Shown here: in pieces, positions 5,851 through 9,408 of the stretch
Layout: each line of letters starts with the position of its first letter
Position numbering within the stretch: position 1 is the stretch's first letter
Assembly (NCBI GenBank): GCA_002839605.1
Contig: PGYK01000013.1
Span: 1 to 45,853 of the forward strand
Direction: 5' to 3'
DNA length: 45,853 nt
Source of the DNA: Methanomicrobiales archaeon HGW-Methanomicrobiales-3
GTDB taxonomy: Archaea > Halobacteriota > Methanomicrobia > Methanomicrobiales > Methanospirillaceae
The notes under the pieces: model-generated
Told to the model about the DNA's origin: nothing
Databases searched by the model: none
What the model saw: the letters and a program-made list of their open reading frames with translations, nothing else
Position numbers and translations under genes: made by a program

Positions 5851-5980
5851 TACGGTACTATTGCTCCATTCACCTACTAATGATAATCGCTCCATGGGGC
5901 AGAAAAGCAGTGTGAACAAACCAAGATTTTTTTATTCACATACTGCCTATTGGATAGATACAGAGTAGGGGTTGTTTTTT

Positions 5981-6250
5981 GTGCCGGAAAATTCACAACT
6001 GGTTGTGTATACACTTGAGTTATGCCCGAATTGCGATTTGTTAAAGGGTTTTTTGAAAAAGAGCAAAATTGCCTATTCCGAGCGGGATCTCTCAAGTGCC
6101 GAATCGCTCACCGAACTTCGGGTGAACGGTGTATTTGTCAACGAAGCACCGGTGCTCCAGAAGGGGGAAGATTTTTTCACATCCGCAGACCTTTTCCCCA
6201 CGGGTAAACTGGACGAGACGCACATCGCACAGCTCATATCAGGTGACTGA
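5981..6250 (+). CDS. nrdH: Glutaredoxin/NrdH-like redoxin, likely electron donor to NrdD
   Basis: An 89-residue thioredoxin-fold protein with redox motif CPNC at about residues 15-18 in YTLELCPNCDLLKGFL and a cis-Pro loop (VNEAPVLQ). GTG 5981 is preferred over TTG 5972 because AGGGG (5967-5971) sits 9 bases upstream of it. Its TGA shares a base with the nrdD ATG (TGATG, 6248-6252), so translation is coupled. In Methanosarcina a NrdH-type redoxin fed by a ferredoxin-dependent reductase reduces class III ribonucleotide reductase (established knowledge). The adjacency suggests the same role here. The gene symbol is by context. Confidence 0.82.
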   Translation: MPENSQLVVYTLELCPNCDLLKGFLKKSKIAYSERDLSSAESLTELRVNGVFVNEAPVLQKGEDFFTSADLFPTGKLDETHIAQLISGD

Positions 6251-8430
6251 TGGCCCGACCGGAAACCAGACAGCTGACCTTCGAGGGAATCGAAGTTCCG
6301 GCCCTCCCGGTCGTTCGCACGACTGATGGCCATATCATCGACTGGGATCGGGGCCGTATCGTCCGGCAGATTGTCGAAGAGACAAAACTTGTCGAGACCT
6401 TTTACGGGTACAAGGGCGCGAGCGAGGAGACTGCGCAGGAGATTGCCCTTGACGTGGAGAACAGGATAAAGGACATGGGACTCAAGTCCCTCTCAGGACC
6501 CCTGATCCGGGAAATTGTCAATATCACTCTTCTTGAAAAAGGGATGGTCCAGTACCGCAACGTCTCCACAAGGGTAGGTACACCGGTCTTCGATGCGCAC
6601 CTCATCGATGTGGGCAGAGGCTTCGAAGCCCATGACAATGCCAACCTCCAGGAGAATGCCGAGACCTCGCACAAGAAGAAAGCAGACAAGATCTCAAAGG
6701 AACAGTACCTGCTCCAGCTCCCGCCGGACCTTGCCGACCACCACCTCTGTGGCGAGATGCATATCCATGACCTCGAATACTTCGGTACCCGGCCGTTCTG
6801 CCAGGACTGGGATCTCCGGTACTTCTTCTACTATGGCCTGATGCCGGACGGAAACGGGACAAAAGCTTCCGTTGCCGGCCCGGCAAAACGTGCCGAGGTC
6901 GCAATCCTGCACGCGGTCAAAGCGCTCGGATCCGCCCAGACAAACTTTGCCGGAGGGCAGGGGTATTACAACTTCCTTACCTTCCTTGCTCCGTTCATGG
7001 AAGGGATGCCGTACGAAGAGATCAAGCAGATGATCCAGATGTTCGTGTACGAGATGACCCAGATGATGGTTGCCCGCGGCGGCCAGCTGGTCTTCTCGTC
7101 TATCCAGCTCTGTCCCGGTGTGCCTACGCTCTGGCAGGACAAGCCCTGCGTGTACAAGGGGAAGATCTGGGACGGTAAATCCGCACCCCTCCGCACGTAC
7201 GGGGAGTTCGAACGCGAAGTCCGTCTGCTTTTCAAGGCGATCATGGAAGTCATGCTTGAGGGGGACTACTGGGGCAAGCCCTTCAACTTCCCCAAGCCGG
7301 AGATCTCCATCGAACCCGACTTCATGCAGGAGCGCGAGGAGTACAATTCGCAACACCCGGACCTTCCCACATATAACGAACTCTACCTGATGACCTTTGA
7401 GCTGGCATCCAAGTTCGGGACGCCGTATTACGACAACCAGCTCCCGGCCTACCGTGGTTCGGGAAAAGGCATCTCCTGTTACCAGTGCTGCGCATACCAG
7501 TTCTCGGCTGTGGCAGACGAGGACTCCGAGTTCGACCAGAAACTCCTGTTTGAAGAGGGCAGGCACTTCTCGATGGGCTCATGGCAGGTTGTTTCCGTGA
7601 ACTGCCCGCGGGCTGCGTACAATGCTGAAGGAGACGATGCACGGCTCTTTGCCGAACTCAAGAAACTCATGGATGTCGCCGTTGAGATCTTCAAGATCAA
7701 GCGCCGGTGGATGGACCTGATCCGGGCCAACAACCGGATGCCGTTTGCCATGCAGCGCCCCAAGGACCCCAACACCGGGGAGCGCGGCGCCCTTGCCGTT
7801 GATCTCGAAGGACTGGTTTACACGATTGGCGTTGTTGGCGTAAACGAGATGGTCCAGCACCACACCGGCCAGCAGATGCACGAATCAAAAGCTGCGTTCA
7901 GGCTCGCGGTCCGGGCAATGATCGAGATGGAGCAGTACGGCAAGAAACTGAGCGCGAAGAACAATATGACCATCGCACTTGCCCGCACACCGGCCGAAAC
8001 CACCGGGCAGCGGTTTGCTGTCGCCGATCTTCTTGACCGCCGCTACCATGAATCTGCAAAGAAAGTGATCAAGGGCGACCTTGAGGAGAGCCTGATGCGG
8101 CTTGGCAAGAGCCGGGATCTCCCAATCTATTACACCAACGGCACCCATGTTGCACCGGGAGCAGATGTAACGCTGACCAAACGCATGGAGATCGAGCATA
8201 CATTCTTCCCCATTGTCGACGGGGGCAACATCTTCCATATCTGGCTTGGCGAGGCACGGCCGGATCCACGCGGGCTCATGGACATGGCCATGAAACTCTG
8301 CCGGACAACCCAGATCGGGTATTTTGCGTTCACCCGGGACATTACCGTCTCGCTCCGGCAGTTCCACGACATGCGGGACAAGAAGGATATCGCAAACTGG
8401 ACCCCCGCGGATCTTCCGGTCAGGGCATAA
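6250..8430 (+). CDS. nrdD: Anaerobic ribonucleoside-triphosphate reductase, glycyl-radical tail apparently missing
   Basis: A 726-residue class III ribonucleotide reductase that makes dNTPs under anaerobic conditions. The N-terminus carries an ATP-cone-like region (about 15-110: DGHIIDWDRGRIVRQIVEET). The catalytic barrel follows, with the methanogen-type Cys loop ISCYQCCAYQFS and the segments GSWQVVSVNCPRAAY and HVAPGADV. The alignment holds to GYFAFTRDITVS near residue 700. The usual CxxC...CxxC zinc site and R-V-x-G-Y glycyl-radical motif do not follow; about 25 unrelated residues end the protein. No other frame downstream restores them. The start overlaps the upstream redoxin. No nrdG activase gene is nearby. 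Family assignment is firm; activity is open. Confidence 0.9.
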   Translation: MARPETRQLTFEGIEVPALPVVRTTDGHIIDWDRGRIVRQIVEETKLVETFYGYKGASEETAQEIALDVENRIKDMGLKSLSGPLIREIVNITLLEKGMVQYRNVSTRVGTPVFDAHLIDVGRGFEAHDNANLQENAETSHKKKADKISKEQYLLQLPPDLADHHLCGEMHIHDLEYFGTRPFCQDWDLRYFFYYGLMPDGNGTKASVAGPAKRAEVAILHAVKALGSAQTNFAGGQGYYNFLTFLAPFMEGMPYEEIKQMIQMFVYEMTQMMVARGGQLVFSSIQLCPGVPTLWQDKPCVYKGKIWDGKSAPLRTYGEFEREVRLLFKAIMEVMLEGDYWGKPFNFPKPEISIEPDFMQEREEYNSQHPDLPTYNELYLMTFELASKFGTPYYDNQLPAYRGSGKGISCYQCCAYQFSAVADEDSEFDQKLLFEEGRHFSMGSWQVVSVNCPRAAYNAEGDDARLFAELKKLMDVAVEIFKIKRRWMDLIRANNRMPFAMQRPKDPNTGERGALAVDLEGLVYTIGVVGVNEMVQHHTGQQMHESKAAFRLAVRAMIEMEQYGKKLSAKNNMTIALARTPAETTGQRFAVADLLDRRYHESAKKVIKGDLEESLMRLGKSRDLPIYYTNGTHVAPGADVTLTKRMEIEHTFFPIVDGGNIFHIWLGEARPDPRGLMDMAMKLCRTTQIGYFAFTRDITVSLRQFHDMRDKKDIANWTPADLPVRA

Positions 8431-8475
8431 TTTTTTCACCAGTTTTTTATTCTTTTACGCTACCGGTATGAGTAT

Positions 8476-9408
8476 ATGGGCAAACAGTTCTGTACCGCGT
8501 GCGGAGCAAAGATTAACGAGGGCATGCGGTTCTGCGAGAATTGCGGTGCAGCCGTTGAACCGTCAATACCCGCTGAAGTACCAGCAGGTGCAGTACCGGT
8601 TTCCGGTGCCGTTACCAGTACCTTCACGGCACCCTCAGGTCAGGGTGCGGGAAGACGTACCATACTGATCATCGCCGGCATCATCGTTCTCCTCCTCATC
8701 GCAGCAGTCGCGGTAGTCGTTGTGTTGCCAGGGTTTCAAAACAGTTCCCTGCCGGGAATGTCCAGCCCGTTAACACCGGCTCCTACTCCCTATCCCACAC
8801 CGGCTCCGACGCCGGTCTCGGTTGAGACACTGGCAGAACCGGTACCCCCGCCTGAACTCTTCCCGGACGCGCTTGCACTCCGGGAATTGTTCTATTTCAA
8901 CAACGAGAGCAAATATGCCAGCCGGGCAACGGTGTATCGTGTCTGGATGAATGAGACCTATCATTGGCACAATGATATGGATAATAAATATTACACTGAA
9001 CCAGACCGCCCGAATCCTGACTTCAAGTATCTGCTGGTCTTTGTCAACATCGAAAACATTGGATCGGATGGGTACCCCTATCCCAAATCCAATATGATCA
9101 TTGTTCACAATGGCGGCAACCTGTACCGGGTTGATACCTCCCATTTCCTTCCCAACAAGGCAGGAGACAGGGATGCTACTGCGATCGAGATCTTCGAGAT
9201 CGGGACGTTCTCCGATTATTTCCGGCAGGAGTACGTCGAGGATTACGGGTACTCCCACGGAACTACCCAGGATTTTGTCTTTCCCGGCATGGGTAACGCC
9301 ATTGACGGGTACCTGATTTACAAGGTACCTGCATCCCTCAAACCAGAGGAGACCTATGTTGAGATCGTGTTCGATGGAGAGGAACGGGCAGTCTGGAAAC
9401 TCTCGTAA
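8476..9408 (+). CDS. Zinc-ribbon, single-pass membrane protein with extracytoplasmic domain
   Basis: A 310-residue protein. An N-terminal zinc ribbon has two CxxC pairs (Cys 6/9 and 20/23). A Pro/Ala/Thr linker leads to a strong transmembrane helix at about 62-84, then a Pro-Thr repeat stalk (TPAPTPYPTPAPTP) and a C-terminal domain of about 190 residues rich in Tyr, Asp and Asn (YLLVFVNIENIG). The latter resembles the beta-sandwich of DUF4352-like secreted domains. The layout suggests a cytosolic zinc ribbon linked through the membrane to an outside sensor or binding domain. No enzyme motif is seen. It follows nrdD after a T-rich gap and has no operon partner. A second protein of similar layout lies at 17622-19190. 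Confidence 0.75.
   Translation: MGKQFCTACGAKINEGMRFCENCGAAVEPSIPAEVPAGAVPVSGAVTSTFTAPSGQGAGRRTILIIAGIIVLLLIAAVAVVVVLPGFQNSSLPGMSSPLTPAPTPYPTPAPTPVSVETLAEPVPPPELFPDALALRELFYFNNESKYASRATVYRVWMNETYHWHNDMDNKYYTEPDRPNPDFKYLLVFVNIENIGSDGYPYPKSNMIIVHNGGNLYRVDTSHFLPNKAGDRDATAIEIFEIGTFSDYFRQEYVEDYGYSHGTTQDFVFPGMGNAIDGYLIYKVPASLKPEETYVEIVFDGEERAVWKLS

Follow-up and report, generated by a model that had tools for sequence, protein, structure and literature searches.

The window analysed here is the complete 45,853-nucleotide contig PGYK01000013.1 of Methanomicrobiales archaeon HGW-Methanomicrobiales-3 (assembly GCA_002839605.1). It contains a gene for NrdD, the class III ribonucleotide reductase (RNR), which encodes a protein of 726 residues directly behind an nrdH-like gene (Table 1). 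Glycyl radical enzymes normally bear the radical on the catalytic chain. The catalytic domain of this protein scored above the curated cut-offs of both NrdD profiles, with 468.8 bits for TIGR02487 (cut-off 326.35) and 444 for PF13597 (cut-off 26.2), but coverage stops at profile position 529 of 581 in the former and at 511 of 562 in the latter. This bears out an earlier sequence-only reading, in which the protein was described as an NrdD without the C-terminal zinc and glycyl-radical motif. The same reading placed the end of the alignable part at GYFAFTRDITVS, followed by about 25 unrelated residues and a T-rich end, and this was found to be correct. The RNR barrel fold was recovered in a structure model of the chain (predicted local distance difference test, pLDDT, 69.7), whose top 35 Foldseek matches were all class III RNRs, the best being 9d3x (E 5.9e-21). 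Fused homologues within the phylum share 61-70% identity with the window protein. The cysteines C184, C413, and C414 are unchanged in 28 of 28 aligned sequences, split and fused alike; the roles of the NrdD barrel and finger-loop cysteines are assigned by analogy (PMC4493059).

The zinc/glycyl-radical domain, although defining for NrdD, is not on the large chain and was located on a distinct 125-residue protein encoded on contig 16. A PF13597 search of the entire genome gave exactly two matches in separate open reading frames (ORFs), one covering profile positions 1-513 (the window gene) and one covering 507-562 (contig 16). The earlier statement that no small radical protein lies nearby therefore holds for the window, which has no second NRDD-family match, but fails genome-wide; the protein was missed because it is located on another contig. 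The proposed genome search for a short ORF with a zinc site and RVxGY turned up one such ORF, the contig 16 gene. Its product carries CPLCG-CPECG and RVTGYLQDVSGWN, with CPLCGQAVCPECG as the zinc quartet and SRVTGYLQDVSGWNAGKQQELKDR as the radical loop; the glycyl-radical motif is present in the genome as CPLCGQAVCPECG...SRVTGYLQDVSGWN (locus L002).

Table 1. Features of the split NrdD system, with positions in the window unless a contig is given.
Feature	Position	Strand	Remarks
nrdH-like glutaredoxin/thioredoxin ORF	5972-6250	+	CPNC motif; stop overlaps the nrdD start (TGATG)
nrdD, large chain of split class III RNR	6250-8430	+	726 residues; weak ATP-cone at residues 21-102, then NrdD barrel
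Cys184, universal reductive cysteine	6799-6801	+	aligns to T. maritima Cys125 (4coi); role per PMC4493059
Cys413-Cys414, finger-loop pair	7486-7491	+	by analogy with the SCCR motif of other NrdDs, a putative thiyl-radical site plus an additional redox Cys
Last conserved block GYFAFTRDITVS	8317-8352 (residues 690-701)	+	fission point immediately after
C-terminal tail LRQFHDM... and stop	8353-8430	+	25 residues, lineage-specific; resembles no radical domain; T-rich stretch next
Small radical subunit	C16:8782-9159 (L002 1288-1665)		125 residues; PF13597 507-562, E 5.8e-14, over C16:8995-9147

Pfam detected only NRDD and a weak double-zinc-ribbon match on the small protein. In a profile comparison it matched residues 696-737 of the solved P. 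copri NrdD structure 8p23, at the C-terminus, with an E value of 1e-7, and it is nearest to the radical domains of same-subtype fused NrdDs in the phylum, with up to 74% identity. Over 21 genomes, the small protein is 64-90% identical, with 120 residues free of gaps and RxTGY invariant. Ahead of the zinc/radical part lies an extra Cys-rich N-terminal region (CHTC...CPNC...CPLDHCHCTH), and its cysteines suggest one or two additional metal sites. The idea that this extra zinc domain was already fused in the outgroups was rejected, as an apparent 31-32% alignment to a different NrdD type proved to be barrel sequence and not zinc domain.

The split arrangement was found across the order. Both chains were present in 53 of the 60 genomes of the group, our own genome counted; one had neither, and six had a single chain (the large in three, the small in three), all six being incomplete or fragmented assemblies. 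The large chain stops at the same point in all 30 order members extracted, and in these its tail is 25-31 residues long, starts with Leu-Arg/Lys, and is a possible docking tail. The 80 small-gene matches listed, out of 255, include Methanoregula, Methanoculleus, Methanolinea, Methanospirillum, and Methanofollis. In a survey of 147 genomes from the phylum, those NrdD matches that are intact and lie outside Methanomicrobiales reach position 560-562 in one frame, whereas order members carry separate pieces; weak NrdD matches in this search are known only among the matches listed. Some of the intact NrdDs outside the order have probable inteins. In a tree of the barrel, the split chains all fall on one side of a branch with a support of 99/100. 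Since they form one clade, a single ancient fission in the Methanomicrobiales ancestor is most likely and is the simplest reading.

The residue at the junction is informative. The conserved block is closed by Cys in 18 of 18 fused NrdDs, and in those of the CxxC type this Cys is the first of the zinc site. In the 30 split large chains, the position holds Ser (24), Cys (3), Ala (2), or Pro (1), meaning that the Cys is gone in 27; the window protein has Ser. The junction Cys of the large chain is presumably superfluous now because the small chain bears its own complete CxxC-x4-CxxC.

Several results suggest that the split enzyme works. Across both chains, nonsynonymous divergence (dN) was 0.007-0.12 and synonymous divergence (dS) 0.12-1.5, giving a dN/dS of roughly 0.04-0.17, so both are under purifying selection. 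The distances of the large and small chains co-vary (Mantel r 0.87, a value not reached in any of 5000 permutations). Neither our own genome nor G006, G015, G016, G019, G022, G030, G035, and G050, which are 94-99% complete, showed a class I or II RNR; G016 is a closed chromosome, assembled as one contig of 1,949,073 bases. In these nine genomes, all at least 94% complete, no RNR other than the split enzyme was detected, and it must work in them because class I/II RNRs are absent there. The reverse situation was seen in the genus of G055, a clean natural loss of both chains. Neither chain was found in any of the 25 genomes searched, two of which are single contigs, and G055 itself retains a class I/II-type RNR. 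The joint absence of the two chains, which lie at different loci, is strong evidence that large and small chain are one functional unit.

Two further variants of nrdD were observed within the order. One member has an additional full-length NrdD of 569 residues and of another type besides the split enzyme (G036:C1:590703-592373). The large chain of G036, G038, G039, G040, G044, G045, G053, G054, G058, and G059 has probable inteins near PF13597 positions 57 and 260, and these intein-bearing frames are open for 1170-1727 residues.

The gene neighbourhoods of the two chains differ. The nrdH-like product reaches 23.1 bits for Pfam Glutaredoxin (cut-off 22.9), has a weak match to NrdH (TIGR02194), and is the probable electron donor of the reductase. 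All 30 order loci, and most same-subtype fused outgroup loci, have nrdH upstream of nrdD. In several fused outgroup loci, nrdG directly follows nrdD; here, in contrast, nrdG does not adjoin nrdD. The activase gene was found on a third contig (C12:6772-7281; NrdG2 TIGR02495, 154 bits, cut-off 131.15). The small gene sits in a block dhs-pyrF-small-cbiZ, with neighbour names read off the sequence, which is complete in 74 of the 80 named loci and present in the other 21. The small gene and cbiZ share a few overlapping bases in nearly all loci. This cbiZ-like gene for cobinamide salvage (L002 1662-2552) overlaps the small gene order-wide, which pairs part of a B12-independent RNR with B12 salvage, and the pairing is unexplained. 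Downstream of nrdD in the window, at 8476-9408 (+), is a gene for a zinc-ribbon membrane protein with only patchy conservation in the genus.

Small-type proteins were also found in viruses. Eight contigs from IMG/VR (L168-L175), two of which look like the same virus, encode a solo small-type protein of 105-136 residues with no large NrdD in the record, although records may be incomplete. Four of the eight exceed 40 kb, and several of the genes neighbour terminase, portal, baseplate, and tape-measure genes. The viral proteins retain the cysteines and RxTGY; ten cysteines and R-x-T-G-Y are unchanged across host and viral small proteins. Within the compared host set, which held Methanomicrobiales only, their nearest relatives are 52-79% identical. 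We infer both the host and the function of the viral small proteins. A solo viral small subunit parallels Y06I of phage T4 (PMC8683613). Three further viral contigs encode a fused NrdD. In addition, a Methanomicrobiales metagenome-assembled genome has a second small radical subunit (L198, G033:C65, 992-1354 on the minus strand), which is divergent, adjoins a DNA-methyltransferase-like gene, and is possibly of virus or provirus origin.

We consider it highly likely that the window gene encodes the larger, catalytic chain of a two-chain class III RNR, with the zinc/radical domain in a separate gene of about 120 residues since the Methanomicrobiales ancestor. At the sequence level, this is supported by two complementary genes that are conserved throughout the order, by the grouping of the split chains in one clade, and by the way in which the two chains vary, occur, and are lost together. 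Radical supply in trans was one of three explanations offered by the sequence-only reading, and it is the one that gained from the second gene and from its order-wide co-occurrence, co-variation, and co-loss with the first. Some points weigh against it. The complex, the radical, and the activity of the split enzyme are predicted from the genes; the large, small, and nrdG genes are unlinked; and shared species history accounts for part of the co-variation. Modelled alone, the small chain had a pLDDT of 65, with the radical loop below 50, and the fold search gave no significant match. Such a poor lone prediction might be expected if the loop folds inside its partner.

The small protein might instead be merely a repair part like YfiD/GrcA, with the large chain having its own, other radical site. 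YfiD/GrcA and phage T4 Y06I, the spare parts of pyruvate formate-lyase (PFL), are also about 14 kDa, also provide a glycyl-radical domain in trans, and also occur in hosts and viruses (PMC8683613). However, YfiD repairs an enzyme of the PFL family that keeps its own radical domain, whereas the split large chains all lack one, and in this NrdD-family system the trans domain is apparently the only one. No other conserved radical motif was seen in the large chain as a replacement, and a different radical site, as had been suggested earlier, is unnecessary with a canonical RVTGY on the other chain. The small protein showed no homology to the PFL C-terminus, and its Pfam match is to NRDD and to no PFL-type radical-domain family; it is not a GrcA/YfiD member. 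With both genes also missing jointly in one genus, the repair-part explanation is improbable. Another possible explanation is that the large gene is degenerate or non-working, as the sequence-only reading had also allowed, and that deoxyribonucleotides come from a class II enzyme. A PF02867 (class I/II) RNR is indeed present in 41 of the 60 genomes, but none was found in our own genome and the eight others named above, the catalytic cysteines are invariant, and dN/dS is far below 1; this contradicts the explanation, which was rejected as very improbable.

The chains could also be joined after translation by split-intein trans-splicing, an idea favoured by the probable inteins inside nrdD of several order members. 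This was rejected because of the tail length and the missing junction motifs: the large-chain tail has only 25-31 residues and begins with Leu-Arg/Lys, with no N-intein block, and an HN-Cys/Ser/Thr C-intein junction was seen in 0 of 21 small proteins. The small chain also has its own start at a constant place across the order, and trans-splicing is left with a very slight chance. Slightest of all is the chance that a normal C-terminus is hidden by an assembly error or a read-level frameshift. No point in its favour was found, and it was refuted because 30 genomes assembled separately, several as single contigs, share the identical end, and because the small gene sits elsewhere, in a conserved neighbourhood of its own.

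Most likely, the radical-SAM (S-adenosylmethionine) activase NrdG installs the radical on the RVTGY glycine of the small subunit (Gly100 of the 125-residue form). The radical loop would then dock into the large-chain barrel and hand the radical to the finger-loop Cys413/414 and from there to the ribonucleotide, after which NrdH would re-reduce the active-site cysteines. The lost covalent link is probably replaced by the N-terminal Cys-rich domain of the small subunit, perhaps aided by the large-chain LRQF tail.

The closest known system is the class III RNR with NrdH as reductant (subtype NrdD3), for which the Methanosarcina barkeri enzyme has been characterised. The barrel, the cysteines, the upstream nrdH, and RVTGYLQxVSGWN are common to both. 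NrdD3 is marked by a third active-site Cys, no active-site Glu, and NrdH in the operon; the enzyme described here has an invariant CC pair and an adjoining nrdH. The difference is that the zinc/radical domain here has a polypeptide of its own, extended at the N-terminus by a Cys-rich domain. The split class II RNR NrdJa/NrdJb, for example of Pseudomonas aeruginosa, likewise has two chains with a zinc-finger C-terminal part on the second (PMC9669993), but it is an adenosylcobalamin enzyme without a glycyl radical, so both the class and the role of the second chain are different. In phages, nrdD genes interrupted by introns, by inteins, or by breaks without explanation have been described (PMC3653736). 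According to Andorfer et al. 2021 (PMC8683613), validation as a radical part acting in trans is limited to YfiD and Y06I, and the authors ask whether there are more. We found no split class III RNR like that of Methanomicrobiales in the open-access papers searched, although the study of the M. barkeri enzyme by Wei et al. 2015 (cited in PMC8365446) may mention one.

An immediate consequence is that genome annotation throughout Methanomicrobiales will show NrdD as 'truncated' and leave a small zinc protein without explanation. A radical subunit damaged by O2 could be swapped without rebuilding the 726-residue barrel. The chances seem to us evenly balanced that the two chains form an obligate glycyl radical enzyme whose radical subunit can be exchanged, and that Methanomicrobiales viruses supply this subunit themselves to take over or sustain host DNA-precursor synthesis. 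The split enzyme offers a natural system to separate radical installation, docking, and catalysis, and to test radical-module exchange between anaerobes and their viruses. It appears that a whole archaeal order relies on a trans-supplied radical, some of its species having no other RNR.
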